Source: Fischerella sp. JS2 (lineage in GTDB: Bacteria > Cyanobacteriota > Cyanobacteriia > Cyanobacteriales > Nostocaceae). From it: a stretch of 64,000 bases of DNA. The position numbers and the translations under genes are program-made. Shown here one piece after another: positions 30,557-52,662 of this stretch (position 1 is the stretch's first letter; every line of letters starts with the position of its first letter). The notes under the pieces are model-generated. The model was given only the letters and a program-made list of their open reading frames with translations. It made no database searches and was not told the DNA's origin. Location of the stretch: assembly GCF_032393985.1 (NCBI RefSeq), contig NZ_CP135918.1, forward strand, positions 1,302,001 to 1,366,000, written 5' to 3'.

Positions 30557-30560
30557 TGAC

Positions 30561-32657: not shown

Positions 32658-33188
32658 TCAAGTTTTAGAATCCATCATTTTCAAGACAGTTTGTGAGGTT
32701 TCACTGATTTCTTTGACATCCTCATTCGCTTTTTGTTCCTCTACTGTAGTAATTAAATTGAGTTCTTTTTCTGTTGTCTTCAACAATTTTTGTAGCCAAG
32801 CTTGACGGTTATTTAGTGTTTCTTGACGTTGTTTAATCTCATCTGGTGTTGTGAAACTAAGATTCAGTTCCAAAGCAAAATGAGACATATCGTCAATAAA
32901 TTCCAGCATACTTCCTTGAGTAAGCTTAGGCTTTTGGTGATTTTCCTCTGAGCTTTCTTCTAGTTTATTCTGAGATTTATTCCCCTTGAAAAATCCTATA
33001 ATCTTAGCCAGAGAATTAACTTGTTTCGTTTCTGTAACTACATCTTCTTTGATTTGGGAAAGCGACTCAAGTTCTAGCTGATTTTCGTCACGTAGTGCTT
33101 TTAACCAAAGCTGGCGATATTCCATCTGGGCTTGGCGCTGTTTAATTTCTTCTATACTACTAGATCCATAAACTCTTTCTATATCCAT
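32658..33188 (-). CDS. Protein with a duplicated coiled motif, function unknown
   Basis: 176 residues, highly charged and helical. A motif occurs twice: IEEIKQRQAQMEYRQLWLKAL near 12-32 and PDEIKQRQETLNNRQAWLQKL near 114-134, each followed by a Glu/Leu helix (ENQLELESLSQI, EKELNLITTV). In between lies a Lys-rich linker (KIIGFFKGNKSQNKLEESSEENHQK). No signal peptide or membrane segment. It begins 60 bp after the HlyD-like gene stops and is probably co-transcribed with it, so a cytoplasmic partner, cargo or regulator of that membrane protein is a reasonable guess. Confidence 0.7.
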   Translation of the reverse strand: MDIERVYGSSSIEEIKQRQAQMEYRQLWLKALRDENQLELESLSQIKEDVVTETKQVNSLAKIIGFFKGNKSQNKLEESSEENHQKPKLTQGSMLEFIDDMSHFALELNLSFTTPDEIKQRQETLNNRQAWLQKLLKTTEKELNLITTVEEQKANEDVKEISETSQTVLKMMDSKT

Positions 33189-36124: not shown

Positions 36125-37723
36125 TTACTCCATGTAACCGAGCATTTGTAGCTGAGCAATGATTTGTTGTTTTTCGTCCTCACTAATATCGCCAGTTCCT
36201 GTATTTGCTTCTTCGCCAGTAACAGTAGAAGCACCAATTTTGATTGGTTTTAAATCTAATTGGGTTTCAGTGAAAAACTCTTCAGGTACATAACCTTCAA
36301 AATCTGCGGGGACTGGTAGACCAAGACTATACAGCAGAGCAGCTGGAACATCTACAACATTTTGGCGCTTCCCTTCATAATTGGATTTTATTCCGTATCC
36401 TCCTGCTAGGAAAATACCGTCAGGATGATGAGTTCCTCCTGGTGTCTCACGCGGTTCAACCGCAGGTTGGTAATTTTTGATCGAGACAAAACCATAGTCG
36501 CGCAGCACTAAAGTTAAGTCAGGAGCTTCATGCATAGCAGCTCCAGAATAAACATCTTCCCGTTTATGAATTGCTTGGATAATCCTTTCGCCTGTATTCT
36601 GATCTCGGAAATTCTCCAAATCACAAATTAGTTTTTCCCGGAAGGCTTCGTATTCTGAAGGCTGAACACCGGGATCTCCTGGTTTTTCGGCTACACGGAT
36701 TGTGATGCCGTTACTGGAGGGAGTACGGCAGTAAGCTAGAGTTTTATCCCAATCTAGATTGGCAAACCAACTAGATTCACGTCTATTGCTTGCTTCAGAA
36801 CCGTCTGTTTCTTTCCATACTAAGTAACCTTTTTCATGCAAAAAGGTATTGATGCGAACCACTTCTGTTGTGGCTGTGAAGCCGTGGTCGGAGGCCATAA
36901 ATACTTGAGCTTCAGGGCCAGCAAGTTCTACTAGGCGCTGAATATAAGTATCTAACTTGCGGAAATACTCTAGACACAGTTCCCGCATCCGTTTTTGCCA
37001 AGGAGAAGGATTAGCTGGTATCAAGGCAGGATCGAGAAACATCCAGATTTGGTGCTGGAGTTTGTCTACACCATCAAATAATACTGCCATCAAGTCGGGG
37101 TTATCTTCTTTGAGAAGTTTCTCGGCAATTCGGAACCACTGTTCATCGCGAGGGATATGATAGCGAACCCAGTTTTCTAAATCTTCATCGGTCATAACCT
37201 CCAAGGTTTGTTTTTCACGGTCAAAGTCCCAAGCTAATTCCTTAGGATCAAAATCTGGAATTTCCTTGAGACGATCATATAAATTGGCTGGAGTTGTGTT
37301 GCGGCGCAAGTGTTTCCAAGGAACAAAACCTGGTATTAAAGCTCCATTAATTGGTAAGGGTGGAGCAGTGAAGGGAAAGTTTAAAGCTACAACTGTAGCA
37401 TTTTGGCGACTGGCGATCGACCAAATAGTTTCTGTACGAATATCTCTGGCATCGTAAAGGGTAAAAAAGACATCCCCTGCTTTTTCTTCAGCACGAATAA
37501 AGTCGTAGACACCGTGATTTCCGGGAGTTCGACCAGTCATGATAGAAACCCAAGCTGGAGGAGTCAGAGGATTAGGAGTAGAAAGCAATTTAGCCCGCGC
37601 ACCGTTTTCAATAAACTGTTTCAAAAAGGGCATTGTCACACCTACATCCGGTAGGTCACGGATCATCTCATTGATAACGGTGAAAGTCGCACCATCTAAT
37701 CCTATAAATAATGTTTTTGTCAT
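36125..37723 (-). CDS. Alkaline-phosphatase-superfamily enzyme (type I phosphodiesterase-like)
   Basis: About 532 residues. N-terminal FIGLDGATFTVI supplies the first metal Asp; PLTPPAWVSIMTGRTPGNHGVYDF near 53-76 contains the nucleophile position (Thr/Ser in PPAW-S-M-TG) of phosphodiesterase/nucleotide pyrophosphatase proteins. AVLFDGVDKLQHQIW near 214-228 and MASDHGFTAT near 278-287 provide the remaining metal ligands, and GTHHPDGIFL the last His. It starts one base into the ACP stop (TGATG), so the two are translationally coupled. In the operon it may hydrolyse or transfer a phospho- or sulfo-group on the finished lipid; which one is not readable from sequence. Confidence 0.85.
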   Translation of the reverse strand: MTKTLFIGLDGATFTVINEMIRDLPDVGVTMPFLKQFIENGARAKLLSTPNPLTPPAWVSIMTGRTPGNHGVYDFIRAEEKAGDVFFTLYDARDIRTETIWSIASRQNATVVALNFPFTAPPLPINGALIPGFVPWKHLRRNTTPANLYDRLKEIPDFDPKELAWDFDREKQTLEVMTDEDLENWVRYHIPRDEQWFRIAEKLLKEDNPDLMAVLFDGVDKLQHQIWMFLDPALIPANPSPWQKRMRELCLEYFRKLDTYIQRLVELAGPEAQVFMASDHGFTATTEVVRINTFLHEKGYLVWKETDGSEASNRRESSWFANLDWDKTLAYCRTPSSNGITIRVAEKPGDPGVQPSEYEAFREKLICDLENFRDQNTGERIIQAIHKREDVYSGAAMHEAPDLTLVLRDYGFVSIKNYQPAVEPRETPGGTHHPDGIFLAGGYGIKSNYEGKRQNVVDVPAALLYSLGLPVPADFEGYVPEEFFTETQLDLKPIKIGASTVTGEEANTGTGDISEDEKQQIIAQLQMLGYME

Positions 37724-38010
37724 CACACCCCTCCGTTTAATTGGCTTGAAACAAAATTCACTAGCTGTCCTACGCTTAAGTCATCAACGTAACGACCATC
37801 CTGCATTAACAATCGAGCAAAGCCAAATTTCTGCTTGAAATGGTCTTCTATAGCAACAACAAAATGGATGATATCGATAGAGGCAAAGCTGAGGTCTGTT
37901 ACTAGCTGGGTATCAAGACTGATCTCATCAGATTCCAAATCCCAGTCTTGGATGATGTCTTTGAGGATATCAATAATTGTTGATTGAATCGGAGAGTCTA
38001 TGGCTTGCAT
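37723..38010 (-). CDS. Acyl carrier protein (stand-alone)
   Basis: About 95 residues from ATG 38010. The phosphopantetheine site is DLSFASIDIIHFVVAIEDHF, with Ser in the DLSFASID context replacing the common DSL; helix 1 is QSTIIDILKDIIQDW. The frame can be read further upstream to 38055 (TTG), adding 15 residues, but the ATG fits family length better. No clear ribosome site, perhaps because translation is coupled to the upstream gene. It would carry an acyl chain between the PKS modules and the AP-superfamily enzyme, with which it shares a TGATG overlap. Confidence 0.85.
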   Translation of the reverse strand: MQAIDSPIQSTIIDILKDIIQDWDLESDEISLDTQLVTDLSFASIDIIHFVVAIEDHFKQKFGFARLLMQDGRYVDDLSVGQLVNFVSSQLNGGV

Positions 38011-38107
38011 AAAGGTTGTTGTGAAAGAAATTTGTGAGTAAGTAGGTTGGCACAAAATAAAGTTAATTAGTTGGGACCGTCATTTGTCATTTGTTATTAC
38101 TTCACAC

Positions 38108-38992
38108 TTAGGTGTGCTGACAGATAGCCAATACTTCGCGATCGCCGTAACAAAGCTGGACGACAAATGATTCACCACCGTAGTTGACAGTGGTCCACTG
38201 TCCATCACTGGAAACGTGGGTAATTAACCACTGCGTCGGATTGCCTTGCAGTCCTGTACCTAGTGCTTGGGCGACAGCTTCCTTAGCAGACCACAGCCCG
38301 GTGATGCTACTCTGGTGTCGTTGTGGCAGTCGTTGCAGTTCGGATTTACTGAAGGCAGTAGCCATTAAGTCTTCAATACGCAAAGAGTCAAAATGCTTAA
38401 TATCAATACCGATAGATTTTCCTGAGTGTGCGATCGCTGCGACTACAAAACCTTGACTGTGACTGATGGCAACCTCTGGTAAAACTCCTGCCATCGCCTC
38501 CAACTCTGGACAACGGACAACAGGCTTACCTGTGATAGTGCTAATAACTTCGATATCAATCGGGGCAAGTTCCAAATTAAAGTTTTGCTTTGCCCACTGA
38601 CGGACGGCATCTTTAGCAGCAATGCAACCAATTAACCAATCCGTACGTTCTGTCCCTTTTTCTGGTAGATTGTACCAGAAAAGGCGTTCTGATTCATTCA
38701 GCATGAGATGTGCTAGAACACGTTTCCAAATACTCCAAGAATCATCTAGAAAATGTTCTGGGAAGGGTTCAATCCGTCGCACCACCATTTGAGTTTCTGC
38801 TTGTAGCCAAGCATCTGATAAATAAGCTGTTTGGGGATGCAAGCGACATTGGTAATATCTATGTGGCACGCTAAAATAACGGTCTTGCCATCCTTCTAGA
38901 CGAGCGATTACCCGACCTGTGACATCCAGAAAATCAAAGCTAGCCTCAGTTTGCCACTCACTAGTAAAACGCATTAAGCCCCGACACAACAC
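38108..38992 (-). CDS. C-terminal part of split PKS: end of DH domain plus 4'-phosphopantetheinyl transferase
   Basis: The first ~55 residues (FTSEWQTEASFDFLDVTGRVIARLEGW) are the missing end of the hot-dog dehydratase domain encoded just upstream; the frame is continuous with that domain if one base is restored at 39045-39046. Residues about 110-290 form an Sfp/HetI-like phosphopantetheinyl transferase: GCIAAKDAVRQW, AISHSQGFVVAAIA, then SIGIDIKHFD and LWSAKEAVAQALGTGL. In the GIDxE metal motif Glu is replaced by Lys, and the KEAxxK lysine by Gln, so activity deserves testing. A fused transferase would arm the ACPs of this operon. I regard this entry and the next (38974-43158) as one gene of about 1683 codons. 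Confidence 0.8.
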   Translation of the reverse strand: MLCRGLMRFTSEWQTEASFDFLDVTGRVIARLEGWQDRYFSVPHRYYQCRLHPQTAYLSDAWLQAETQMVVRRIEPFPEHFLDDSWSIWKRVLAHLMLNESERLFWYNLPEKGTERTDWLIGCIAAKDAVRQWAKQNFNLELAPIDIEVISTITGKPVVRCPELEAMAGVLPEVAISHSQGFVVAAIAHSGKSIGIDIKHFDSLRIEDLMATAFSKSELQRLPQRHQSSITGLWSAKEAVAQALGTGLQGNPTQWLITHVSSDGQWTTVNYGGESFVVQLCYGDREVLAICQHT

Positions 38993-41900
38993 TGCACTGT
39001 TGGGCGGTAGGGGTAATACGTACTGATGAAATGCCCGTACTTGGAAGGGAAAACATTAAAATCTGTGCCAAACTGTTCCGAAACCCAGTACCCGACTAAT
39101 TGTCCAGCAGCATCAAGCAAACCTGCATCTATTTGAAAAATTGGCTGTTGGGTATTACTGAAGAAATCTTCAATAGCGATCGCTTCCAAATCAGCTTCGA
39201 TTCCCTGTAAACCCCATTGGCGAATGTGCTTCACACCTTGGAAACGTGGGCCATGGAACATCCCGGTGCGGTACAAATCGGCATCAGACCAACGGGAAGG
39301 TGCAGGTGTCTCGATGTGAAAAAGCATTGGTGAAGGCGATGCTGGAAACTGATTTGCCAGACGTACATTACCCTCAAATACCAAGTGATCGATAGTGCTG
39401 CCTTGTCCCACTTGGAACAGTTGTACCTTTACTTCCCAAGTTTGGGCATCTGGTTGGGGTTGCAACCGTGCTTTGATCTTGAGAGTGAGTTCGCCACGAT
39501 CTAAAGCCAGCCAACGATAACCGCGTAGATCATAAAGTCCCACCACTACCTTATCTTGACCCACCAGGTAAACTGCTGCTTCTGCAAGGGTTTCCATGCT
39601 AACAGTGAATGGAATTACAGGTAGTGGAAACAAGTCTAAATGCCTTTGAGATACTTGGCCGCCAATAGTATGATCGTAGAGAAAAATATCTCGCTCCATA
39701 TCAAAGCGACGTTGGCAGTCAAGATGCTGGGTATCGTGTTTCAGAATCTCACCTAAGAGCGGAAAAGTTTCATCAAAGGTGGATGGTTGCCAGTCGTTGA
39801 CCTCTGGCAGTACTAAAGACATATTGACAACAGGATCAATCACCCCATTATCTACACCAGCCAGGTGAGAGTGCAGCGCTGTCATCACCCGTGCTTGACT
39901 ATCAAGAAATTCTTGCATCAAGTTAAAGTGGTCAAAGATAATTGACAAGCGCTGCTCTTCATCAGTATAAAATTGGTCTTCTCTTGGATTTGCAAAAACT
40001 TTATATGTGCTAAGAGTAACTACATCAGTAGCATAAATACTGTCTTCTACTACACCATGTTTCACAGAAGTGGTAATCCCAACTGTGTCATTCACCTTTT
40101 CTGATACAACGGTGGTCACAACTGGAATCGTGCTAGATGAGTCGTTTGTTGCTGGTTCTGATTGTTGAACTACAGATGTAGCAGACGGAACAATTGCAGG
40201 TGGATTAAGTGGCGTTGGCGCGATCGCAGCCACTTTGTTTATTTGCAATTTTTCCCGGACAGTGGTGACAAAGTCTGGTTGCAAACGCAGAACTGGCATT
40301 GTCAGTTCTAACACAGGGCTGGACTTTTGAATTTCGCCAACCTGCGTTGTGGTATCTAGGCTAACAGGGGTAATTTGTCGATGCAAGTACAACGCGGTTG
40401 TATCCACACGATTACCGTTGACAAACAACCGTGCTAACAAATGCTGAATCTGTTCCAAGCCGGATTGCCGTTGGCTGTTGCTGGCTATGGCTTGGTGTTC
40501 TCGACCGTGGAGGATATCACTGACAAAGGCAGTAAGATTACTACTAGGCCCGACCTCAATAAAATTTTTAACTCCACTCTCATACAGTTCTTGAACTGTT
40601 TCCTGGAAGCGCACTCGACTAGACCATTGTTGTGCTGCTAACGCCCGAATCGCTTGTGGTTCCTGGGGAAATGGTGCCGCAGTCGCACAGCTGTAAAGAG
40701 GTGTGTGACCCGAACCTACATCCAAATCGTTGTAGAATGCCAGGAAAGCAGTCCCGACGGGTGCAAACAAAGATGTGTGATAAGCACGATCAAAAGGTAG
40801 ACGGGTACAGATCCCACCTACTGCTTGCAACTTACTGGTGGCTACATCGATGTCATTAACACTGCCAAACAGAACCACTTGATTTGGACAATTATCCATT
40901 GCCACATGTAAGCGTCCATCAAACTCAGTCAAGACTTGTTGCAAAATCTCAGGTGCGATCGCCCCAACAGTTAACAATGCGCCCTTAGGAATGTTGTTTG
41001 CCACCTCTAAATCTAGGTAAATCTGATTGAGGAGGCGCATTTTGGACATCAATTCTATCCGATTAGATAAACGGACAGTGCCAGAAGCAATCAGTGCTGC
41101 ATTCTCGCCTGTACTGTGTCCCACCATGACATCGCAGTTAACGCCTAAGTTACACAGCAATTCGTATAATGCCATGCTGGCAGTAAACACAGTTTCGGAA
41201 GCGACATCCATATCAAATAGTCGCTGCTGGGTATTTTGACGTTCTGTTTCCGTTAAGCTGGTCAGTGGCGGAAAAATCAGTTGGCTGGGTAAATAAGCCC
41301 GTCTCTCACTAAAAGTAGCGTCTAAAAAGTCAAACCACTCGCGTACTTGCGGGAAATAAAGGCACAGATCAGCCAACATTTGGGGATATTGCGACCCTTC
41401 ACCAGGAAATATAAAGGCTGTCTTGCCAGGATTGTCATTAGCATCAACTTCTGCGTAATAAATGCCGTTACGAGTTTGTAATCGGCTTCTGGGAGAATTT
41501 TGTAATTTTTCAACTGCTTGGCTGAGTTTTTTCTGTAATTCTGAGATATCCTTAGCGACTACAGCCAGACGATGAGAACCGAGGGGGTGAGTTGATAAGG
41601 TGTAGGCAATTTCAGCGAGAGTTACTTGGGGATTATTTTGCAGTACTTGTTGGACTTGCTGAATGCGCTCAAGCAGCACTGAACGACTATCACCTGAGAA
41701 CAACAGCAGTTCTGTAGGCCATTGCTGGTGTAGTAACTTAGTTGATTGTACAGGTTGGGTTGGGTACTCTTCTAAGACAGCATGGGCATTAATACCACCA
41801 AAGCCAAAAGAGTTGACACCTGCGCGTCTTGGTATAGAGCGATCGCCATGAATCCAGGGTCGTGCCTGTGTATTGATATAAAAGGGAGTCTTTTCGATTT

Positions 41901-43158
41901 CTAGCCCAGGATTCACCTCATCGCACAGCGTTGGTGGCAAGATTTTGTGGTAAAGTGCCAGTGCTGTTTTGATAATTCCTGCTGCGCCGGCTGCGGGAAT
42001 ACAGTGACCAATCATTGATTTCACAGAACCCAAAGCACACTTGGGTAATTGCTCCTGACGCTGACCAAAAATTTGGGTTAAAGAGCGTACCTCTGTTTGA
42101 TCTCCCAAGGCGATGCCTGTACCATGCGCTTCAATCATGCCGACAGTCGTAGGATCAATACTACTGTCTTGGTAGGCACGTTGTAGTGCCAGCACTTCCC
42201 CTTCCAGACGTGGTGCTAAAAGTCCCAAAGCCTTGCCATCACTGGAACTACCAACACCTTTGAGAACAGCATAGATGCGATCGCCATCTTTTTCGGCGTC
42301 GCGTAACCGTTTCAAAACTAAAATTCCCAAACCTTCCCCTAGTAGAGTACCACTAGCTTTGCTGTCAAAAGGTTTAATCTCGCTGCGAGACAAAGCACCC
42401 AACTGACAAAAAATCATGTTAATTTGCGGTGGGGTAGAAGCATGAACACCTCCCGCTAAAACCATGTCGCAGCGATCGCTTAATAGCTCTTTCATCGCCA
42501 GTTCCACAGCAATTAAGGAAGAAGCGCAAGCTGCATCAATAATGTAATTAGGCCCCATCAAGTTGAGGCGATTAGCAATGCGGCCTGTAATCACATTTGG
42601 CACTAGTCCTGGCGCCATCTCAGCTGTAAAAGGTGGCAAGCTCGCTTTTAGCTGTTTGCGAATTTCATTTAAGGTGTTTTCATCTAGGTCTGGATGCAAT
42701 TGCCTCAGCAAATCCAAGGTCTGATCTACAATTTGACCATGTTGCAACAGTGTGTTATAGCCCCGGTTGATGTAAGTACCACGACCGAGAATAATACCTG
42801 TTTTTTCTCGGTTGAAGGGGCGATCAATGTAGCCGGCATCTTGCAGCGCTTCCCAGGAAAGTTTGAGAGCAAGAAAGTGATCTGGTTCACCACCATCCAC
42901 TGAACTGGGCATGATCCCAAATTCCAGGGGATTAAATTCCGCCAAGTCTCCTAAAAAACCACCTTTACGAGTGTAGATGCGGTCATTTGCTGTGGAATCG
43001 GGGTCAAAATAAGGCTTTGCCCATTTCTCGGGTGCATCCCCAACAGCATTAACCTGATTTAAAATGTTTTGCCAGTATGTACGCAGATCCTTAGCTCCAG
43101 GAAATAAGGCAGACATACCAACAATGGCAATGTCGTGAGATGAATTTGGCACAATCAT
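38974..43158 (-). CDS. Polyketide/PUFA-type synthase, KS-AT-DH (frameshifted before its C-terminal PPTase)
   Basis: 1394 residues before the shift. KS at about 8-450: DAACASS with active Cys 211, EAHGTGI and SVKSMIGH with the two histidines. AT at about 560-900: FIFPGEGSQYPQM and GHSTGENAALIASG (Ser nucleophile). A Ser/Thr/Val linker follows, then a tandem hot-dog dehydratase from about 1130. Reading ends in an unrelated KYGHFISTYY...-type tail, whereas the +1 frame continues as FQVRAFHQYVLPLPPNS into the downstream frame. The start is set at ATG 43158 because it overlaps the previous stop as ATGA; an upstream ATG at 43194 exists. Domain order and the two-part synthase resemble PfaA/HglE-type secondary-lipid synthases. 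Confidence 0.88.
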   Translation of the reverse strand: MIVPNSSHDIAIVGMSALFPGAKDLRTYWQNILNQVNAVGDAPEKWAKPYFDPDSTANDRIYTRKGGFLGDLAEFNPLEFGIMPSSVDGGEPDHFLALKLSWEALQDAGYIDRPFNREKTGIILGRGTYINRGYNTLLQHGQIVDQTLDLLRQLHPDLDENTLNEIRKQLKASLPPFTAEMAPGLVPNVITGRIANRLNLMGPNYIIDAACASSLIAVELAMKELLSDRCDMVLAGGVHASTPPQINMIFCQLGALSRSEIKPFDSKASGTLLGEGLGILVLKRLRDAEKDGDRIYAVLKGVGSSSDGKALGLLAPRLEGEVLALQRAYQDSSIDPTTVGMIEAHGTGIALGDQTEVRSLTQIFGQRQEQLPKCALGSVKSMIGHCIPAAGAAGIIKTALALYHKILPPTLCDEVNPGLEIEKTPFYINTQARPWIHGDRSIPRRAGVNSFGFGGINAHAVLEEYPTQPVQSTKLLHQQWPTELLLFSGDSRSVLLERIQQVQQVLQNNPQVTLAEIAYTLSTHPLGSHRLAVVAKDISELQKKLSQAVEKLQNSPRSRLQTRNGIYYAEVDANDNPGKTAFIFPGEGSQYPQMLADLCLYFPQVREWFDFLDATFSERRAYLPSQLIFPPLTSLTETERQNTQQRLFDMDVASETVFTASMALYELLCNLGVNCDVMVGHSTGENAALIASGTVRLSNRIELMSKMRLLNQIYLDLEVANNIPKGALLTVGAIAPEILQQVLTEFDGRLHVAMDNCPNQVVLFGSVNDIDVATSKLQAVGGICTRLPFDRAYHTSLFAPVGTAFLAFYNDLDVGSGHTPLYSCATAAPFPQEPQAIRALAAQQWSSRVRFQETVQELYESGVKNFIEVGPSSNLTAFVSDILHGREHQAIASNSQRQSGLEQIQHLLARLFVNGNRVDTTALYLHRQITPVSLDTTTQVGEIQKSSPVLELTMPVLRLQPDFVTTVREKLQINKVAAIAPTPLNPPAIVPSATSVVQQSEPATNDSSSTIPVVTTVVSEKVNDTVGITTSVKHGVVEDSIYATDVVTLSTYKVFANPREDQFYTDEEQRLSIIFDHFNLMQEFLDSQARVMTALHSHLAGVDNGVIDPVVNMSLVLPEVNDWQPSTFDETFPLLGEILKHDTQHLDCQRRFDMERDIFLYDHTIGGQVSQRHLDLFPLPVIPFTVSMETLAEAAVYLVGQDKVVVGLYDLRGYRWLALDRGELTLKIKARLQPQPDAQTWEVKVQLFQVGQGSTIDHLVFEGNVRLANQFPASPSPMLFHIETPAPSRWSDADLYRTGMFHGPRFQGVKHIRQWGLQGIEADLEAIAIEDFFSNTQQPIFQIDAGLLDAAGQLVGYWVSEQFGTDFNVFPSKYGHFISTYYPYRPTVQCCVGA

Positions 43159-45605
43159 AGGTGGCTGGCTAAACGATTTAGAGCAGTGTTGCAAGTACTC
43201 TCAATGTCCTTGAGATGGAAGCGTACATAGCCGTTTTCATCAATAAAAACAGCATCGTAATTTAGGCTGTGGTCATCAAAGCGATTGACTCGGAAGGCAA
43301 TTCGCAACTGTCCATGAGGCATTGATTGCCCATAACGTTTGACACTGCCAAATCGCGCGGGTAAAGCTGTAGTTCCTCGTTGTACTCGCGCCCAGATGAT
43401 CGCTAACTGAGGAGCCACATCAATCAAGCCGGGGTCAAATAACCAATTAGCTATTGGTTGAGTATTCAACCACGCCGTAGGTCGGCTAGGCATGACTTGG
43501 GCATCAATACCCGCATCATTTAATCGCTCAATGGCTGTAATTAACTGGAAACGTTGACCATGAAAGAGATACGTATCATAAGCTACAGTAGGTTCTAGCC
43601 TCTCTCCGGAAGATAATGGTAAAATTTCGCTTGTTGGTAGTTCTGACCATTGGGGACAAAGAATCACAGAAGCTCGATAAAAGGGGATATTTCGCTCTGG
43701 GTCAACTATTTCTGCTGCTACCTGTAAGGATTCAGAGTCAGCATGGCTAGAAGCACGAGCCTTAAATAAAACTTTTTTACCAGCATCTGTGTCTAGTACT
43801 AAACCTCGTAAAACTCTGAGTTGGCAAACTTCTGTGACTTGCCATTCTGGCCAAGCTGACTGGACAAATTCACCAAACCACTCTAGAGCACCAGCAGCAG
43901 GGAGAACAGGTTTACCATCTAAGCGATGATCTTCTAGATAAGGATCAGTGGACAGAGAAAAGGTGTGTTCTAGGGTAACAGTGCCGTTGGGTTGCAGTTG
44001 CGGGGGTGTGGGTAATAAAAGGTACGGAGATTTGCGATTAACTGATATGGGATTTTCAGGCGACACCTGTAAATTAGCTTCGTAGGCTTCCCAGGGGCCT
44101 TCTCCGGCAACTACTTCAGTTTCACCCTTGCGTCCGTAATGCAATTCGTCAATAAAGAACTGACGACCTGCTGATAATGGGATAGGGATTATACCACGTT
44201 GTCGGAATTGACGTTTGACTTCTTCTGAAGCCATACCAGTGGTATCCCAAGGGCCCCAGTTGATGGCTACGACCCGCGTATTTGACCAAGAGCGATCCAT
44301 TTGCCAAGCAAAGCGATTCATCACTTCATTGGCAGCAGCATAATCAGATTGACCGCGATTGCCATAGCGTCCGGCAACAGAGCTAAACAAGACGAGCAAC
44401 TTTAGGGATTCTGGTCTGAGATAACGGTACAACAAAAAGGTACTATCTGCTTTGGTGTCAAAAACACGCTCCAAAGAAGCAAAGTTTTTGTCAGCAATGA
44501 GCTTGTCTTCGATGATACCAGCACCATGAATAACCGCATCTAAGCGACCGTAACGAGTATATATACTGTTAATCGCAGAACCAAACTCTTCAGCATTTCT
44601 CACATCCACTGCTAGATACTCTACCTGAGCGCCAGCTTGGCGAAATTGCTGGAGATTTTTAGCAATGGCGCGATCGCGTAACAAGTCTTGCAGTTGTCGC
44701 TCTATCTGCATTGGGGTTGGGGTCAAGCTTTGTGTCTGGGCTCTTTGCAGTAAGACTCGTCGCAGTAAGGCAATATCTTCAATACCAGCTGTATCAGCTG
44801 TTTCTGCTGCTGGTTCTGCGGCTCGTCCTGTGATCACCAGCTTTAACCCGGATTGTGCCAAATCATTAGCAATCTCAGCAGTAATTCCCCTAGCACCACC
44901 TGTAACTAATACTACCCAATCACTAATTGGTGTTAATTGTGCAGGTTGATTTTCCCTCGCCAAAGTAGCTGTAACGGTTTGGAAAATCGTCCGTTGACCC
45001 TGGGGATAGCCAACTTCCAAACGACCACTACTTAGTAACTCATTAACAATATATTCAGCAATGCTAACAGGGGATAAGCTGTTGTCAAAATCAATAGCTT
45101 TGGCTCGAACTCCAGCCCACTCTGTTACCAAGGTTTTGAGGAAACCAGTGTTACTACCGCCACTAGGTAAACCAGAACTACCTTGACCTTGGCGACCGAA
45201 ATATCCCCCTAGTAAAGAGGCCGCTACTACGCAACCCATTTGTTTTTGCCCTGCTTGTTGCAAATCAGCAGCACACAGGTGCAGTAATTGAAATAGACTC
45301 TTGGAGTGAATCTGGGTGATTTGCCGCCATCCAGACAGTGTTTCCGGTAGATCAATGGCAGCGAGGGGAGCTAGATGTACAATTCCGGTGACAGAACCGT
45401 GAAGTTGCCTAACCAGTGCGATCGCCTGTTCTAGTTTTTCTGGTTCAGCTAAGGTAGAGGTGTTGATAATAGCCGTAGTAGCTCCTTTTTGTTGCAATGC
45501 GGCGGCAACATGGGAGGCTACGGATAGCCCATCTTCTGTAATCAAGAAAAAGCCTGTCAGCGAAGCAAGCTGCTGTGGCGGCAAAGCTTCTAGCTGTGCT
45601 TGCAT
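43155..45605 (-). CDS. Ketoreductase-dehydratase protein of the PKS operon
   Basis: 816 residues. KR at about 10-490: a degenerate Rossmann half first, then VVLVTGGARGITAEIANDL (NADPH loop) near 230, VIHGAGIIEDKLI near 355 and LFSSVAGRYGNRGQSDYAAANEVMNR near 400-425, holding the catalytic Ser, Tyr and Asn. Dehydratase from about 535: DPYLEDHRLDGKPVLPAAGALEWFGE, fitting HxxxGxxxxP. It begins with TAATG, sharing one base with the previous stop, and ends with ATGA into the next gene, so all three large proteins are translationally coupled. It would reduce and dehydrate beta-ketoacyl chains on the ACPs of the neighbouring synthase. Confidence 0.9.
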   Translation of the reverse strand: MQAQLEALPPQQLASLTGFFLITEDGLSVASHVAAALQQKGATTAIINTSTLAEPEKLEQAIALVRQLHGSVTGIVHLAPLAAIDLPETLSGWRQITQIHSKSLFQLLHLCAADLQQAGQKQMGCVVAASLLGGYFGRQGQGSSGLPSGGSNTGFLKTLVTEWAGVRAKAIDFDNSLSPVSIAEYIVNELLSSGRLEVGYPQGQRTIFQTVTATLARENQPAQLTPISDWVVLVTGGARGITAEIANDLAQSGLKLVITGRAAEPAAETADTAGIEDIALLRRVLLQRAQTQSLTPTPMQIERQLQDLLRDRAIAKNLQQFRQAGAQVEYLAVDVRNAEEFGSAINSIYTRYGRLDAVIHGAGIIEDKLIADKNFASLERVFDTKADSTFLLYRYLRPESLKLLVLFSSVAGRYGNRGQSDYAAANEVMNRFAWQMDRSWSNTRVVAINWGPWDTTGMASEEVKRQFRQRGIIPIPLSAGRQFFIDELHYGRKGETEVVAGEGPWEAYEANLQVSPENPISVNRKSPYLLLPTPPQLQPNGTVTLEHTFSLSTDPYLEDHRLDGKPVLPAAGALEWFGEFVQSAWPEWQVTEVCQLRVLRGLVLDTDAGKKVLFKARASSHADSESLQVAAEIVDPERNIPFYRASVILCPQWSELPTSEILPLSSGERLEPTVAYDTYLFHGQRFQLITAIERLNDAGIDAQVMPSRPTAWLNTQPIANWLFDPGLIDVAPQLAIIWARVQRGTTALPARFGSVKRYGQSMPHGQLRIAFRVNRFDDHSLNYDAVFIDENGYVRFHLKDIESTCNTALNRLASHL

Positions 45606-48600
45606 TACGTAGCGTGGGATACTTGCAACTGGGCTGGAGACTTTCCCAGGCCATTCTCCTGTGCTGAGATTGCCAGAACTTGCTCAACAATACTATTGAG
45701 AGTTTTCACACGGGTCAAACTTTCCATGCGTGCCTGTACACTAGTTGCTAGGGACTGAGGCAAACTTTTTTGCAGCGCGCCCAAGATTTCGACTCGCTTA
45801 ATTGAATCAATACCCAGTTCTGCTTCTAAATCTTGGTCTAATCCCAACATATCTGTAGGATAACCAGTGCGATCGCTCACTAGTTGCAACAGAGTTTGAG
45901 TGAGTTCGGTTTGATTGAGCGATTCACCGACAGATGCAGCCGAGAGATTTGCAGTTGTGACAGTATTAACCGTTGTCGCAGCCGTAGGTTGGAGATTTTC
46001 TAAGATTTTATCTACAATGCCGTTGAGAGATTTGACCCTGGTCAACTGCTCCATTTGCTGACGCACACTATCTGCAAAGCTGGCTGGTAAAGCTTGGTTA
46101 AGTGCGCCCAAAATTTCGACTCGCTTAATTGAATCAATACCTAGTTCTGCTTCCATATCTTGGTCAAGTCCCAACATATCTGCTGGATAACCCGTACGTT
46201 CACTCACCAGTCCTAATAAAGTCTGAGTTAAACTGCCACGATCTGGTAAGGACAGAGCAGTAGCTGGGGGTGCTGGTACTTGTTTAACTACTATCTCCTG
46301 TACAGGTGGCGCTGACACTGGTTGAGGAATTATAGGCTGGGGTGCAACTGGTAGCTGCTCTTGTTTATTGTTGGGTGTTAAGGTTGGTGCAGAACCGTTT
46401 TTTGGCTGAACAGTGACAGGTTGCAGAGGAACTGGCAGATGATTTTGTGGTTGATCAGTGACAGGTTGTGGAGCAGCTGGCAAATGATTTTCTGGTTGTC
46501 TATGGGACGGTAAGGGAGTAGTAGCAGGCGTAGGTGTAGGTACAGATACGTTTGTTAATGGTGTAGCTAGTAATTGGCTCATCACCTGTTCTTGGACTGC
46601 TAAGAATTTACGCATAGTCTCTTGGTAGGCCTGATAGGCTTGTAAGATACCTGCTCCTATTGTTTGCTGAGGTGGGTTCGCAGGTGCAGGCAAAGGCGAG
46701 GAATTGCCATTTAAGCTCTTGCCATTAGCTGGGGTGGATGGTATAGCTGGTTGATTCATGAGGATTTCTGACTTTTTTGATCCAAGGTGAGTGTTAGGCT
46801 GTGGTTTTTGTGCTGTGCTGACTGGTTTAGGGACAGCTGGTTTTGGTATTGATTGTTCTTGTACAGGTGCTGACTGGGTTGGGGTTGTCTGGGGCTTAAG
46901 CCTGGGGCTTAATTCCGGTAATGGTGCGATCGCAGCAGCAGTTTCTTGATTTAAGGGTGGTAGTTTACCTGTGTGACCAACTCGTTGGTTTTGTGGTCTG
47001 GCACTACCGCCGTTAATTAACCAAGCTGTTGGAGGTAAAGCAGGTTTACGTGTTAACTCGACCAATTTAGATAGGTTGAGGTTTTGTACATCACGACCAT
47101 CAAATAATGCTGTTAACTTGATGTGGACACCACGAACGAACAATGTACCCAAAGCCATCAATAAACCACGCAATCCCCCACCTTGCCCATCTAAAGACAC
47201 AGCAGTGTGTTCTTTTTGGGCGAGGATTTGACCAACCAGATTAGTTAGGACATGCTTTGGTCCGAGTTCTACGAAAATCCGCGCTCCATCGGCATACATC
47301 GCATTAATTTGCCCCAAAAACTCTACTGGGTTGAGTAATTGCTTGGATAACTGGCTACGGATGTCATTAATATTCGAGCCGTAGGGGCGAGCTGTGGAGT
47401 TAGCATAAACAGGGATGCGGGGAGAATGCATGGTGACGGTGGAAATTGGCGCTGCGAGAGCGGCCTGAGCGGATGCTACCAAAGCGGAGTGAAAAGCACC
47501 AGAAACTGGCAACATCCGGGCTGTAATTCCAGCAGCGTTTAAACTATCTACCACCTGTTGCACAACCTGCTTATCTCCAGAAATCACCGATTGACGGGGA
47601 GCATTTTGGTTAGCAATCACTACTCCCTCAAAATTCTGGAGGCGTAAGAGCAAATCTTCGCGGCTAGTCTGGACTGCGGCCATGGCTCCTACGGAAGTCG
47701 CACAGGCTTCTGCCATCACCCGTCCTCTAGTTGCAGCCAAGTTAAAAAAGTCTTCTCTGGATAAAACTCCCGCAGCGTGCAGGGCTGTGTACTCGCCAAA
47801 GCTGTGTCCACCAACCATGACGGGCTTCAATTCTAGCCTGGCTGCCAAATCTATCAAACCTGTTTCCACTGCCCCAATTGCTGGCTGGGCAATCCGGGTA
47901 TCCATCAGCTGTTTGTAGTTTTGCTTCTCTTCGTCTTCGTTGTAAGAACTGGGTGGATAGACATATTGGCTAAGCAACTTGGGAAAACACTGGCGTAACT
48001 GACGATCTACAAACTCGAAAGTCCCACGTATTTCGTTAAAATATAGCCCTGTTTCCCGAGCCATACCAGAATATTGCGACCCTTGTCCTGGAAACAAAAA
48101 GGCGACCTGTTGATTGGCTTGAGGATCTGCCATACCAAACTGGATATGAGGTGGTAAGGTTTGGGACCGACAATTCTCTAGGTGGGCGATCGCAATTTCC
48201 AGATCTGCTCGTAACTGTGACAAACTCTCAGCCACAATCGCCAAACAAGCACTCTGATGCTGACGTGCTTGGGCGCGTTGAGCAAAACTGTGGGCAATAT
48301 CCTGCAAACGTGGCTCTGCATCGTTACTTAGGGCTGTCAGCAATGATTTGGCTTCTTGAGCTAAAGCCGCACGGTTTTCAGCACGGAATACAAATAACTC
48401 GTAGGGCCAAGCATCAGCACCTGGGGCGACAGCTTGCCAGTTACCTCGATATTCTTCTAGAACAGCGTGGAAATTTGTGCCACCAAAACCAAAGGCACTT
48501 ACACCAGCACGACGAGGATAATCGGGATGGGTTAACCAGGGTTGGGCTTCTTTAGGTAAATACACCGGGCTTTCACCTTCTATGATGGGGTCGAGGGGTG

Positions 48601-51600
48601 TATCAACATTCATGTGGGGGGGTTTGACTTTGTGATGCAGTGCCAAGACGGCTTTAATGACACCAGCAATTCCCGCCGTACTCTTGGTGTGACCGATGGA
48701 AGTTTTTACCGAGCCGATTGCACAGGATTTGGGATTAGCTTGATATTCTTTCAGGACACTAATTACAGTTTCTAACTCTGCTTTATCACCGGCTGGTGTA
48801 CCTGTACCGTGAGCCTCGTATAGTCCCAAGGTATTGGGTGAAAAGCCAGCTTTATTGTAGGCACGTCTCAAAGCCCGCATTTGCCCAGCAGGTAAGGGAG
48901 CTGTCATCCCCAAAGCTTTACCATCACTGGAACTGGCGACGGCTTTGATGACTCCGTAAATGCGATCGCCATCTCGTTCGGCATCAGCTAGGCGTTTGAG
49001 TACAACGACGGCAATACCTTCACTAATAGCAATGCCATCTGCTGTTTTGTCGAAGGTGCGCGATCTACCGCGTGGTGAAAGAGCTTGAGTTTTACTAAAG
49101 CAGAAATAGGCAAAGGGACTTTGAACGGTGTCAACTCCACCAGCGATCGCCACATTACTACGTCCACTTTCGAGTTCTTTAACTGCTAAATCCAATGCTG
49201 CTAAAGAAGAAGCACAGGCAGCATCGACTGTGAAGTTGTGACCACCGAAGTCAAAACGATTGGCGACTCGACCTGCAATCACATTCAACAACAAACCAGG
49301 GAATGATTCTTCTGTCCATTCTGGTAAACGCTCCCAAACTTCTGGTGCAGTTTTACCAACCATCCGGGGAATTTCACAACGGGTAGCATATTGCTGACCT
49401 AAATCTGCAATGCCGCCACCTGCCCCGAAAATTACGGAGGTATGCTCGCGATCAAAGTTACCAGACTCATAGCCAGCATCTTCTAAGGCTCGTCGCACTG
49501 TCTCTAATGCCAGCAGCTGCACTGGTTCAATGGATTTTAATGATTTGGGTGGAATACCAAAACGCAGTGGGTCAAAGGGTACATCTTCTAAGAATCCACC
49601 CCACTTAGAATAAACTTTATCTCTGGCGTTACGATCAGGATCGTAGTAGAGCCGCCAATCCCAACGCTGAGCAGGAATCTCTGTAATCGCATCGACTTTG
49701 CGGAGAATGTTGTTCCAGAAGGTTTCAGGATACTGAGCTTGAGGTAATAATGTTCCTATACCAATAATGGCGATATCTGAGGGACGAGTTGTGACTTCTT
49801 GTTCTCTATCTTGTTCAATGAACGCAGATATTAACAGCTTAGTACCATTTTCCGATACATTTTGGTGTAATTCTCGTACAGTACAAACTTGATCGCGGAG
49901 AGTGGCGACTTGCCCGATCATGTACATGCCATCAGTCAGTTGTTGTGCTTCATCTACTGTTTGCACCTGACCATCTGGTGTACGTTGCAATCCTTTGGAA
50001 GCGATGCGTAAGCGTCCTAAAGTTAAATCCTCTAAGGTGTCTTTGATTTCCTCAGGAGGACTGCCTGCTGCCATCATTTGTCGTCGTGTAGCGTAGAATT
50101 CTTGGGCAAAGGGAGTGACAACGCAACGACTAGCATGTCCCGGTCCGGTTTCTAAGTTAATGGTGCGGCTACATGCTAGGGCTTGTTCTTGAAATTTCTG
50201 GACGATCGCACCACAGGCAACAGCTTCTTGGGTAAATAAATATGCTGTACCCATGAGGACACCTATCCGCATGCCTCGCTCGACAAGAGGTGCAGCCATT
50301 GCAGCGATCATTGCTGCGGAACGGGCATCGTGAATACCGCCAGCAAATAGCACATGTATATCAGATTCTTTACCTGCTGGCACATCTGCTAATAAGGTGG
50401 CGATCATGCTTTCCCAGAGAACAAAACTACTCAAGGGGCCAACATGACCACCACACTCGCGACCTTCAAATACAAACCGTCTTGCCCCTTGTTCCAGAAA
50501 CATTTTTAGTAGGCGTGGGGCTGGAACATGGATGTATGTAGCAATTCCTTCGGCTTCAAAATGGGCTGCTTGATCGGGACGTCCACCTGCAATTAAGGCA
50601 AAGGCAGGTTTGAATTCTTTCACGGCTTGGATTTGTTCTTCACGCAACGCATGAGACACAAAACCCAGCATCCCGATACCCCAAGCTCGATTGCCCAATA
50701 GTTGTTGGGTTTTTTGCAGTAAGCTGCGTACTTGCGAACCGCGCATTAATGCTAAAGCTAACAATGGCAGTCCTCCGGCTTGGGAAACTGCATTAGCAAA
50801 CTCTGCGGTATCGCTCACCCGTGTCATTGGCCCTTGCACAATCGGATATTGAGTGCCGTGGGAAGCTGCTAAAGGTGCATTGGCATCTAAAGGACGTAGT
50901 TGTTGAGCTATTTTGAGTTGTTCTTGACTTTGTTTGAGTAATGCTTGAATCAGTTTGCCAATTGTGGGGTAGTGATCGCGAAATGTTGCTGCTAATCCTA
51001 CAGCTTGCCCCATTGGCCAAGCTAGTTTTCCTGGTTCACCCCAACCTATGAATGGTTGTGCTTGTTGTTGCCATTTTTGAACACTATCTGCTGAACCGTT
51101 GTTTTCAACTTCTATTTGGTCGGCAAGTTGTTGCAAGTTAGTAATTACTTGAAATCCTGGACGGGACAGGACACGACAACCAGCATTCAGCCTTTCGCCC
51201 AGTACCATTGCTTCTTGACCGTTGAGGTTGCTGAGATGGCGCTGCCATTCCTGTGGCAGGGGTGATTCTGGCATTAGCCATAATTGGTCATCCAATACGA
51301 CACCAGCTGCTCCGGCTGCACGACAGGCTGCTGCTGTGTGAATTCCAATTCCACCTTGGACATAGACTGGACGTGACTGAACGCTCAAGAGTTTCTGCAA
51401 TAAAATAAAAGCGGAGTCTTCGCCTACCCAACCTCCGCTTTCATTTCCACGAGCAATTAAGCCATCAATATTGAGATTCTCTAGTTGAGTATTTAGAGTT
51501 TGAGCTTGTTCAACCTCTGTAATTTCTAGTAGGAGTTTACGCGATCGCCCCATTGGCAGTGATGCTAAAACCTCTACTAGCGTCTTAGGATTCCACCCAC

Positions 51601-51865
51601 ACAGGATTAACCAATGAGGTTGATTACTCAAACGTTTCAAGAGTCCATGACTAGAAGCAACCTGAGCAGATGATAAACGTAGTCCTACAGGTTGACTAGG
51701 ATTAATTAGAGCCAATAATTGGTCTAAATTTTGATTTGCTTGTCTTAGGTCATGACAAAATTCTCTATCTAGAATACCAATACCACCTGCACGGGTAGTA
51801 GCAACAGCTATACCAGGATGAGCAAGGTTAATAGGACTTACAGAGAAACAGATAAATTGACTCAT
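45605..51865 (-). CDS. Polyketide/PUFA-type synthase with tandem nitronate-monooxygenase-like (ER) domains: NMO-NMO-KS-AT-ACP-ACP
   Basis: 2086 residues. Residues 1-200 are a degenerate NMO-like barrel (GIAVATTRAGGIGILDREF; VQGGIGIHTAAACRAAGAAG). Residues 335-670 are a complete PfaD-like one (VQGPMTRVSDTAEFANAVSQ, ECGGHVGPLSSFVLWE), the usual enoyl reductase of PUFA synthases. KS at 695-1140: DAACASS with Cys 884, EAHGTGT, SVKTSIGH. AT: FLFPGQGSQYSGM and GGHSFGEYTALHAAG. A long Pro/Gln-rich linker follows, then two ACPs with GIDSIKRVEILGAL, active serines near 1912 and 2021. First gene of the operon, after an 800-bp AT-rich divergent region; no strong ribosome site seen. Acyl length and product are unknown. 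The architecture is close to heterocyst-glycolipid/PUFA synthases but not the canonical hglE order. Confidence 0.9.
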   Translation of the reverse strand: MSQFICFSVSPINLAHPGIAVATTRAGGIGILDREFCHDLRQANQNLDQLLALINPSQPVGLRLSSAQVASSHGLLKRLSNQPHWLILCGWNPKTLVEVLASLPMGRSRKLLLEITEVEQAQTLNTQLENLNIDGLIARGNESGGWVGEDSAFILLQKLLSVQSRPVYVQGGIGIHTAAACRAAGAAGVVLDDQLWLMPESPLPQEWQRHLSNLNGQEAMVLGERLNAGCRVLSRPGFQVITNLQQLADQIEVENNGSADSVQKWQQQAQPFIGWGEPGKLAWPMGQAVGLAATFRDHYPTIGKLIQALLKQSQEQLKIAQQLRPLDANAPLAASHGTQYPIVQGPMTRVSDTAEFANAVSQAGGLPLLALALMRGSQVRSLLQKTQQLLGNRAWGIGMLGFVSHALREEQIQAVKEFKPAFALIAGGRPDQAAHFEAEGIATYIHVPAPRLLKMFLEQGARRFVFEGRECGGHVGPLSSFVLWESMIATLLADVPAGKESDIHVLFAGGIHDARSAAMIAAMAAPLVERGMRIGVLMGTAYLFTQEAVACGAIVQKFQEQALACSRTINLETGPGHASRCVVTPFAQEFYATRRQMMAAGSPPEEIKDTLEDLTLGRLRIASKGLQRTPDGQVQTVDEAQQLTDGMYMIGQVATLRDQVCTVRELHQNVSENGTKLLISAFIEQDREQEVTTRPSDIAIIGIGTLLPQAQYPETFWNNILRKVDAITEIPAQRWDWRLYYDPDRNARDKVYSKWGGFLEDVPFDPLRFGIPPKSLKSIEPVQLLALETVRRALEDAGYESGNFDREHTSVIFGAGGGIADLGQQYATRCEIPRMVGKTAPEVWERLPEWTEESFPGLLLNVIAGRVANRFDFGGHNFTVDAACASSLAALDLAVKELESGRSNVAIAGGVDTVQSPFAYFCFSKTQALSPRGRSRTFDKTADGIAISEGIAVVVLKRLADAERDGDRIYGVIKAVASSSDGKALGMTAPLPAGQMRALRRAYNKAGFSPNTLGLYEAHGTGTPAGDKAELETVISVLKEYQANPKSCAIGSVKTSIGHTKSTAGIAGVIKAVLALHHKVKPPHMNVDTPLDPIIEGESPVYLPKEAQPWLTHPDYPRRAGVSAFGFGGTNFHAVLEEYRGNWQAVAPGADAWPYELFVFRAENRAALAQEAKSLLTALSNDAEPRLQDIAHSFAQRAQARQHQSACLAIVAESLSQLRADLEIAIAHLENCRSQTLPPHIQFGMADPQANQQVAFLFPGQGSQYSGMARETGLYFNEIRGTFEFVDRQLRQCFPKLLSQYVYPPSSYNEDEEKQNYKQLMDTRIAQPAIGAVETGLIDLAARLELKPVMVGGHSFGEYTALHAAGVLSREDFFNLAATRGRVMAEACATSVGAMAAVQTSREDLLLRLQNFEGVVIANQNAPRQSVISGDKQVVQQVVDSLNAAGITARMLPVSGAFHSALVASAQAALAAPISTVTMHSPRIPVYANSTARPYGSNINDIRSQLSKQLLNPVEFLGQINAMYADGARIFVELGPKHVLTNLVGQILAQKEHTAVSLDGQGGGLRGLLMALGTLFVRGVHIKLTALFDGRDVQNLNLSKLVELTRKPALPPTAWLINGGSARPQNQRVGHTGKLPPLNQETAAAIAPLPELSPRLKPQTTPTQSAPVQEQSIPKPAVPKPVSTAQKPQPNTHLGSKKSEILMNQPAIPSTPANGKSLNGNSSPLPAPANPPQQTIGAGILQAYQAYQETMRKFLAVQEQVMSQLLATPLTNVSVPTPTPATTPLPSHRQPENHLPAAPQPVTDQPQNHLPVPLQPVTVQPKNGSAPTLTPNNKQEQLPVAPQPIIPQPVSAPPVQEIVVKQVPAPPATALSLPDRGSLTQTLLGLVSERTGYPADMLGLDQDMEAELGIDSIKRVEILGALNQALPASFADSVRQQMEQLTRVKSLNGIVDKILENLQPTAATTVNTVTTANLSAASVGESLNQTELTQTLLQLVSDRTGYPTDMLGLDQDLEAELGIDSIKRVEILGALQKSLPQSLATSVQARMESLTRVKTLNSIVEQVLAISAQENGLGKSPAQLQVSHAT

Positions 51866-52662
51866 AATATATATTTCAGGATGAGCAAGTACCGGTAGAA
51901 ATTACAGGGAATATAGATAAGTTGCTTCATAGGTATTACATACTTACACCGTTGAGTAAAATGTGAATTTCGTAGCATTACTATCAACAGTTACTCAACC
52001 ATGTGTCTTAATTCAAAGTGAAGTAGCTATTTCAGCCTAAAATTTTTGGTTGCAACCTGATTAATGCTACTAAAGCATGATCTTGAATACATACAACAGA
52101 CTGAGGCAGAAGCACTTATCCTGTATATCAAAATATTAAAATAAATACGGTTTTTACTTAAAAATACATAAATTAAGTCTTTTTTATTACTTCGGCAATA
52201 GTCTAATTTATAGGATTTTTTTATTACATTGTCAATAAATTTTATAAAAGCTTTATACAAAATTAGTCTATATAAATTTTTACTTTAACTCAAATATTTA
52301 ATTATAAATATTTGTAAAAATACATACCAAGTAATTACTGTTTTTTAGGAAGTAAAATCACACTAATTTAAGAATTTAGGTAAATAATACCGTATAAATA
52401 CTTTTATATATAAAAAACTCTCCTTTTAAAAGTAATTTTTTTATTTCGTGTAAATACTTAAAGAAAACTTTACTAAAACTAAAAAAATTAAACAACGGTT
52501 TAAGGGTATAGTATATGCTATTACTGAAATCTAGTTTTTAAAGTATGTGTGATCTTTTTGTCAAAATATCTTTAAAAGCTTAGGTAGTTAGTAAATCTAC
52601 AGCAAAAGTATTGCAAGCTACAGAAATATTAAACCTGCTGAAATAACTCCAAGGATTAGGCA
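51866..52662. other. AT-rich divergent control region between PKS operon and cysC
   Basis: Nearly 800 bp with very high A+T and no credible gene (a 77-codon minus-strand frame inside is rich in Lys, Ile, Asn and looks like noise). It should carry the promoters for the PKS operon on one side and cysC on the other. I see no palindromic operator. Long AT-rich leaders like this often mark regulated genes. Confidence 0.5.

Follow-up and report, generated by a model that had tools for sequence, protein, structure and literature searches.

Secondary lipid synthases were sorted into Types A to T by Shulse and Allen (2011; PMC3098273, cited throughout for the accessible portion of its text). In that portion, a gene combining a ketosynthase (KS), a chain-length factor (CLF) and an acyltransferase (AT), hglC, is the mark of Type F, and Type O, of unknown product, is recorded from Gloeobacter violaceus and two alphaproteobacteria, Dinoroseobacter shibae and Parvularcula bermudensis. 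Here, we describe an operon of this general kind from Fischerella sp. JS2, located in a stretch of 64,000 nucleotides (nt) (the window: positions 1,302,001 to 1,366,000 of NZ_CP135918.1) that sits within a single contig of 7,020,691 bases. It encodes a well-conserved, patchily spread orphan lipid pathway, the synthase of which was probably glimpsed as a type in 2011; what is new here is its tailoring and export neighbourhood, and the replacement, from genome to genome, of the enzyme that accompanies its free acyl carrier protein (ACP).

The operon is confirmed at positions 36125-51865 of the window, on the minus strand, as six consecutive open reading frames (ORFs). A preliminary description, made from the letters of the window, had listed domains that Pfam bears out: two enoyl reductases (ER), KS, AT and two tandem ACPs in ORF1; ketoreductase (KR) and dehydratase (DH) in ORF2; KS, AT, DH and phosphopantetheinyl transferase (PPTase) over ORF3 and ORF4, the ORF3 DH scoring 21.2 bits (cut-off 23.7); a free ACP; and an enzyme of the alkaline phosphatase (AP) superfamily, of the nucleotide pyrophosphatase/phosphodiesterase (NPP) type, which we call AP6. 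The same description had five genes joined by overlaps of one to four bases. This stands for three of the four junctions (TAATG for ORF1/ORF2, ATGA for ORF2/ORF3 and TGATG for ACP/AP6); the PPTase and the ACP are instead separated by a 97-nt gap, counted to the likely ACP start ATG at 38010, and the third gene is split into ORF3 and ORF4 by a one-base frameshift, which rules out KS-AT-DH-PPTase as a single gene in the host genome. In relatives, ORF3 and ORF4 form a single frame (L039, 1569; L040, 1675; L041, 1655; L042, 1711; L044, 1699 amino acids (aa); L and G numbers denote loci and genomes). A second TAATG, at 38974, is a product of the shifted frame: the same letters lie in frame in L039-L042 and L044. 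The operon was rightly assigned to the secondary lipid synthases, as KS, ACP and KR, the minimum set for that class, stand together in a pfa-like cluster, and the built-in PPTase is present, with the lipid-type P1a motif x(G/D)xP in the form TGKP.

Active-site residues are strongly conserved (for KS, AT, KR, DH, ER and ACP, counted on the best match per group, the AT1 row maybe being another AT in some groups). KS1 has Cys/His/His in 66/66 groups and KS2 in 72, 72 and 73 of 73, the remainder being gaps; KS2 is, therefore, not a CLF. Invariant are also Ser/Tyr/Asn of the KR (66/66 homologues), His/Asp of DH1 in ORF2 (53/53), the catalytic residues of DH2 (62/62), and Ser and His of the AT (73/73 and 74/74), the AT arginine being less conserved (57/73 and 56/74). 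Both tandem-ACP serines of ORF1 are kept in 47/47, and the PPTase has its Asp in 43/47 and its Glu in 41/47. The two ERs differ: a His corresponding to the catalytic His of FabK is kept in ER2 in 56/56 homologues, while the ER1 residue at this position is Trp, both in the window sequence and in 43/56 homologues, with no His among the 55 residues printed for it; the GGI loop of ER1 is conserved in 56/56. The pair resembles the thraustochytrid polyunsaturated fatty acid (PUFA) synthase, a two-ER heterodimer with one ER unstable alone (according to the accessible part of PMC13311796). Since KR, DH and ER are all present, we infer that the chain should be largely saturated. The PPTase lies within the KS2 ORF in at least 54 of 72 loci (the KS2 ORF is mis-assigned in G039 and L071, and many other loci end at contig ends), and of the 55 groups having a KS1 frame, 35 show a KR-KS1 fusion.

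Scanning GTDB genomes with six peptide patterns yielded 69 loci in cyanobacteria, Nevskiales, Rhodobacterales and a few deltaproteobacterial, planctomycete and other genomes. Within its own family, the architecture is not as unusual as had been supposed but ordinary: the same parts recur in dozens of loci and probably match a type described in 2011. Unicellular cyanobacteria also hold the synthase family, as does Aphanocapsa lilacina HA4352-LM1 (L100), a strain named in the accessible part of PMC11804610, which deals with hgl-like islands of unknown product; L105 (Sphingomonas) has a different layout. The synthase is nevertheless rare and patchy, because only three of 292 genomes in an even sample of the phylum carry the DH-PPTase part. 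In a 27-row tree, KS1 and KS2 each form a clade across phyla, each supported at 100/99, as would be seen if the two move together; the KS rows labelled hgl by layout (the tree holds no hgl reference) fall outside both. Of 1300 matching plasmid records, none spans 80% of ORF3 at a single location. The 2.9-Mb genome G229 (L130) harbours c5 (a conserved family described below), an ACP-sulfotransferase fusion and KS1/KS2-like genes, while the DH-PPTase part goes unmatched there at 1e-20; by its gene content, it appears to carry a reduced or diverged version.

The free ACP retains the phosphopantetheine Ser in 58/58 homologues (alignment column), and the ACP and AP6 genes are on the same strand in 49/49 pairs, 18 of them within 200 nt and none beyond 2500 nt. 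Eight AP6 residues (D11, T55, D218, D221, H225, D280, H281 and H433) are invariant in 24/24 sequences; assuming catalytic roles as in the NPP family, all 24 have Thr at the nucleophile position and a complete metal-ligand set, so that AP6 is predicted to be of NPP type. A structure model (pLDDT 86.9) has ENPP6, ENPP5 and phosphonoacetate hydrolase as nearest folds, and no PDB entry matches the AP6 sequence at 0.01.

In sister loci, a sulfotransferase fused to an ACP stands in the place of AP6. Over 95 residues, the free ACP of the window shares 56% identity with the ACP of such a fusion in L053, and the L053 sulfotransferase is close to that of CurM (1e-62) and to 4gox (2.8e-53). We compared 75 neighbourhoods, namely 66 named loci (L066, L042 and L044 being dropped as repeats) and nine sets including the window; many end at contig ends, where absence means little. 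AP6 (53) and the fusion (5) never co-occur in them (chance 0.0015 if independent). Among 18 synthase genomes, 12 have AP6 only and six the fusion only; none has both and none has neither (17 whole genomes were searched for AP6 and 18 for the fusion, the host AP6 being taken from the window). For G334 and G039, the stretches initially examined showed neither enzyme; searching the whole genome revealed one of them in each. Two partial AP6 matches were not counted: one of 30%, on a different contig, in fusion genome G331, and a second partial one in G333. Of the fusions, that of G229 is the most divergent (33%). Because AP6 and the fusion replace each other across genomes, we infer that AP6 does a job at the free ACP comparable to that of the sulfotransferase. 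It is tentatively conceivable, and on balance doubtful, that the NPP-type enzyme acts directly on the ACP-held lipid and is interchangeable with a CurM-like sulfotransferase, so that unrelated phospho and sulfo chemistries would cap or activate the same carrier-bound chain. If so, an AP-superfamily enzyme would join the ways to end a polyketide or fatty chain, and halogenase-bearing versions of the locus would be bacterial chlorosulfolipid-like pathways.

Halogenase-like enzymes occur in two sister loci that also have the fusion: three in tandem in L053 (18499-21339) and one in L129 (1414-2463; G308). The first of the L053 enzymes matches the chlorinating enzyme family TIGR01762 with 182 bits, below the 226-bit cut-off. 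Judged by gene content, the two loci are a candidate bacterial chlorosulfolipid-like pathway; on bacterial chlorosulfolipid biosynthesis, the main text of the paper richest in the term contains none of 'halogenase', 'sulfotransferase' and 'gene cluster'.

The cluster is wider than the synthase, and the idea of a self-contained machine was not upheld: by gene linkage, an adenosine phosphosulfate (APS) kinase, sulfotransferase, c5, a hydrolase and an HlyD-type protein appear to travel with the synthase, patchily, and a short-chain dehydrogenase/reductase (SDR) also belongs. In F. thermalis PCC 7521, the run, on both strands, is AP4 (a small AP protein), c5, TauD oxygenase, c36, sulfotransferase, platelet-activating factor acetylhydrolase (PAF-AH)-like hydrolase, c19, exporter-like gene, AP6, ACP and synthase. 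In G034, one strand carries sulfotransferase, SDR, hydrolase, c5, TPR, SDR, AP4, c19-like gene, exporter-like gene, APS kinase, AP6, ACP and synthase, the APS kinase thus lying between AP6 and the exporter-like gene on the same strand; its c19 relative is weak (28%). In PCC 7414, exporter, c19 and PAF-AH-like genes come after AP6. In the host genome, AP4, c5, TauD and c36 lie at 3.66-3.67 Mb, away from the synthase; features in the window are collected in Table 1.

Table 1. Features of the synthase operon and its surroundings (window positions)
Feature	Position	Strand	Evidence or remark
Stand-alone sulfotransferase, convergent with operon	29017..29946	+	PF13469
Transposase pieces (HTH + DDE_3) near cluster break	30062..31136	+	Compare contiguous cluster in PCC 7521
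PAF-AH-like alpha/beta hydrolase	31292..32500	-	PF03403; 7 Fischerella-clade loci including window
c19, small conserved protein beside exporter-like gene	32658..33188	-	6 loci including window
Exporter-like membrane protein, HlyD domain	33248..35893	-	M50-like membrane part: weak match below cut-off
AP6, NPP-type AP-superfamily enzyme	36125..37723	-	PF01663 (type I phosphodiesterase family)
Free ACP	37723..38010	-	Likely start ATG 38010; open frame to 38055; Pfam
ORF4: DH2 end + Sfp-type PPTase	38108..38974 (open frame 38108-38992)	-	Joined with ORF3 in relatives
ORF3: KS2-AT2-DH2, DH2 shortened by frameshift	38974..43158	-	First ATG 43158; open frame to 43194
ORF2: KR + PKS-type DH, 816 aa	43155..45605	-	Pfam
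ORF1: ER1 (degenerate)-ER2-KS1-AT1-ACP-ACP, 2086 aa	45605..51865	-	Pfam (two NMO-type ER stretches)
Shared ORF1/APS-kinase intergenic region, conserved GTA-N8-TAC site	51866..52662	.	Alignment
Extra APS kinase, divergent from ORF1	52663..53268	+	PF01583

Per 75 neighbourhoods, we counted free ACP in 55, the hydrolase (c3 family) in 49, c5 in 33, AP4 in 32, a hexapeptide transferase in 30, stand-alone sulfotransferase in 23, the exporter-like gene in 18, APS kinase in seven and halogenase-like genes in two. A sulfotransferase of either kind is present in 25/75, and in the Fischerella clade, sulfotransferase and APS kinase each accompany the synthase in five of seven loci. The APS kinase beside ORF1 looks additional, since a second strong copy is found at 236.6 kb in the host genome, besides a weak third match. 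The best solved relatives of the window sulfotransferase are the CurM domain 4gbm (3.3e-27) and 4gox (1.2e-21; titled polyketide synthase), which we take to be the sulfotransferase of an olefin synthase. In the exporter-like protein, HExxH was looked for and not found, and its HlyD part has a weak DevB-family match, below cut-off. The c36 protein is secreted-looking and contains Cys, without a Pfam match (window 26972-28138; L116 13302-14789); the window copy is N-terminally shortened, and at 3.67 Mb there is a full-length relative with 79% identity.

The c5 family has no Pfam match in three copies scanned (L047, L116 and relative L123) and no NCBIfam match in three (L047, L049 and L106). It is modelled as a beta-propeller (mean confidence 89.3); an arylsulfate sulfotransferase finds no support, the 50 matches listed being mostly unrelated beta-propellers with query TM-scores of 0.19-0.48. 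In the phylum sample, c5 is present in 4/292 genomes, including 3/3 with the synthase (chance ~1e-6 if genomes are independent), and it occurs in 8/8 further synthase genomes taken from the 69 loci, where L046, L050 and L056 had earlier shown none near the synthase. The window sulfotransferase has 17 matches in the same sample, 14 of them in frames longer than 1400 aa; the remaining three, in G000, G229 and G308 (its fusion), are all in c5 genomes.

The domains, active-site residues, gene linkage and enzyme swap are read directly from the sequences. Building on them, we propose, with about an even chance that the whole is right, that a reducing two-KS synthase makes a long-chain lipid that is finished on an ACP, sulfated and exported. 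ORF1-4 would together be a single type I fatty-acid/polyketide synthase, iterative and fully reducing, with both of its KS-AT pairs catalytic; in it, the built-in PPTase would activate the tandem ACPs and ER1 would serve as the non-catalytic partner of ER2. On the tandem ACPs, a long acyl chain would be built, largely saturated and perhaps carrying hydroxyl groups, and then handed over to the free ACP. There, AP6 would modify or release it, a step that the CurM-like ACP-sulfotransferase would take in sister genomes; the hydrolase would free the chain, the stand-alone sulfotransferase would sulfate it, the additional APS kinase supplying the 3′-phosphoadenosine 5′-phosphosulfate, and export as an anionic envelope lipid would fall to the HlyD-type membrane protein.

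Several observations weigh against this proposal. The 18 genomes of the swap comparison are related and were picked from known loci, the answer for 16 of them being known from the neighbourhood, and we know of no Thr-nucleophile NPP enzyme that sulfates. Sulfation may be a side branch, because the stand-alone sulfotransferase is found in only 23/75 neighbourhoods, G039 (synthase and c5) has no match to the window sulfotransferase at 1e-20, L043 shows no stand-alone one, and that of the window is convergent, outside the operon. In PCC 7414, the stretch beyond the PAF-AH-like gene lacks a sulfotransferase, and the only stand-alone match is on another contig. Finally, the pathway may be non-functional in the host, since its locus is frameshifted and the wider cluster split.

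These last two points lead to an alternative that we judge unlikely: the locus is decaying in the host strain, the frameshift and a transposase-linked split leaving no product. Consistent with this are the one-base lesion in ORF3, the position of four cluster genes at 3.66-3.67 Mb, the shortened c36 copy and the state of Fischerella sp. PCC 9431 (G006/L043/L110), in which the synthase is split (0.92-0.94 versus 1.22 Mb), the KR-DH gene is interrupted, and exporter-like and sulfotransferase genes were not found in the stretch seen. PCC 9431 is an eroded relative; erosion in all relatives was not seen. Against decay, the window and the intact L044 copy match in 301/302 alignment columns across the ORF3/ORF4 junction, the sole exception being a one-base gap; the frameshift is thus either recent or a sequencing error. 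In 302-column alignments, 5/5 relatives have one position more than the window. Moreover, dN/dS of ORF1-6 is 0.02-0.33 versus L044, L042 and L040, lowest for AP6 (0.02-0.07) and highest for ORF4 versus L044; the operon looks to be under purifying selection, which suggests selection on working proteins until recently.

The nature of AP6 suggests another product, which we also consider unlikely: a phospholipid, on which AP6 and AP4 would add or trim a phosphate head group, the nearby sulfotransferase being unrelated. Thr occupies the nucleophile position of AP6 in 24/24 sequences, and likewise, by inspection, in the host AP4 copy; AP6 is, furthermore, present in 53/75 neighbourhoods versus 23 for the stand-alone sulfotransferase. 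A phosphate head group fits poorly with the replacement of AP6 by an ACP-sulfotransferase fusion whose ACP is homologous, and with the APS kinase inside the G034 gene run.

Quite improbable, in our view, is that the carrier-bound step is olefin formation, where a beta-hydroxyl would be sulfated by the fusion, or esterified by AP6, and the hydrolase would drive decarboxylation to a very long terminal alkene. The kinship of the L053 sulfotransferase with CurM and 4gox points this way, as do the c3-family alpha/beta hydrolase in 49/75 neighbourhoods and the role of sulfotransferase plus thioesterase as an alkene-forming pair (accessible part of PMC3903477). However, among the best 60 of 127 solved relatives of the G034 hydrolase, there is no CurM thioesterase, so that a CurM-type thioesterase finds no support there, and an alkene needs no exporter. 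According to the same part of PMC3903477, Fischerella sp. PCC 7414 makes unusual methylheptadecanes, and the two hydrocarbon pathways occur together in no sequenced cyanobacterium; the accessible part of PMC4558948 gives Subsection V genomes, including PCC 7414, fatty acyl-ACP reductase and aldehyde deformylating oxygenase and no olefin synthase.

The intergenic region shared by ORF1 and the APS kinase gene contains three GTA-N8-TAC sites (52314-52327, 52511-52524 and 52608-52621; P 0.006, shuffling), one of which is aligned in 5/5 Fischerella-clade loci, L045 being without any. We assume this motif to be NtcA-like; the bare motif is enriched in the window (20 versus 10.68 expected), where the full NtcA-promoter pattern has no match (0.33 expected). 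That the operon is a second locus of the heterocyst-glycolipid type, with fatty diols or triols as products, is very improbable: the superfamily is the same, with TIGR02813 matches below cut-off, the host group is heterocystous, the HlyD-type protein has its weak DevB-family match and a GTA-N8-TAC site is conserved, but the KS of the hgl-type island (so labelled by layout) lies apart from KS1 and KS2, the KS-CLF-AT gene that marks Type F (PMC3098273, accessible part) is missing, and members of the family are also found in Nevskiales, Rhodobacterales and unicellular cyanobacteria.

We return to the proposed ACP-finished, sulfated and exported lipid. This proposal gives an orphan synthase family a pathway that can be tested. 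From the gene linkage, culturable Fischerella would be expected to export a long-chain lipid that carries sulfate or is anionic in some other way, and AP6 versus sulfotransferase is a natural contrast that can reveal the finishing step. As had been stated, the product is undescribed in the literature searched (most subscription papers lay outside it), which also gave no account of the sulfotransferase or AP-enzyme link, and the accessible parts of PMC13291983 and of the Subsection V survey PMC4558948 have no mention of the locus. No described locus with a known product was found there.

Among known systems, CurM and the cyanobacterial olefin synthase share with the locus an ACP and a related sulfotransferase; here, however, the window sulfotransferase stands alone and the AP enzyme takes its place beside the ACP, as in 12/18 genomes, and neither an acyl-ACP ligase (a part of olefin synthases) nor a fused thioesterase, which such an assembly joins to an elongation module and the sulfotransferase, is among the proteins scanned. 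With hgl (Type F), it has in common the long-chain synthase superfamily and occurrence in cyanobacteria; it differs by KS in other clades, the N-terminal double ER and the built-in PPTase. No hglC-like KS-CLF-AT tandem was found in ORF1-4, and a canonical hgl locus is rejected by domains, KS catalytic residues and separate KS clades, in agreement with the preliminary description. Elsewhere (L132-L135), the host genome has, by layout, an hgl-type island, a compact hgl-like island next to three genes that resemble an exporter set judged only on size and order, and, at 5.22 and 5.32 Mb, another two KS loci.

The Pfa synthases (Types A and B) offer the same KS-AT-ACP-KR-DH logic, an ER of the FabK/NMO kind, a PPTase and the TIGR02813 matches below cut-off, whereas the window has a catalytic second KS, no CLF, only two tandem ACPs, an extra free ACP and the AP enzyme. 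Pfam reports no FabA-type DH/isomerase in the operon, only PS-DH/PKS_DH-type matches at E up to 0.01, and the operon therefore does not qualify as a strict PUFA synthase; the same rejection follows from one KS each in ORF1 and ORF3, both catalytic by their residues. Closest is Type O (as far as the accessible part of PMC3098273 describes it), which shares the spread over cyanobacteria and alphaproteobacteria. The homologous PPTases carry P1a in 50/59 and P1b' in 46/59 (with a broad class for h), versus P1b in 0/59 and P0 in 2/59, a likeness to the Type M-T half; the P1b segment of the window itself, VAISH, differs in fitting neither P1b nor P1b' (hShxH). On taxon spread and PPTase motifs, in a comparison made outside the Type O type genomes, the operon probably belongs with Type O.

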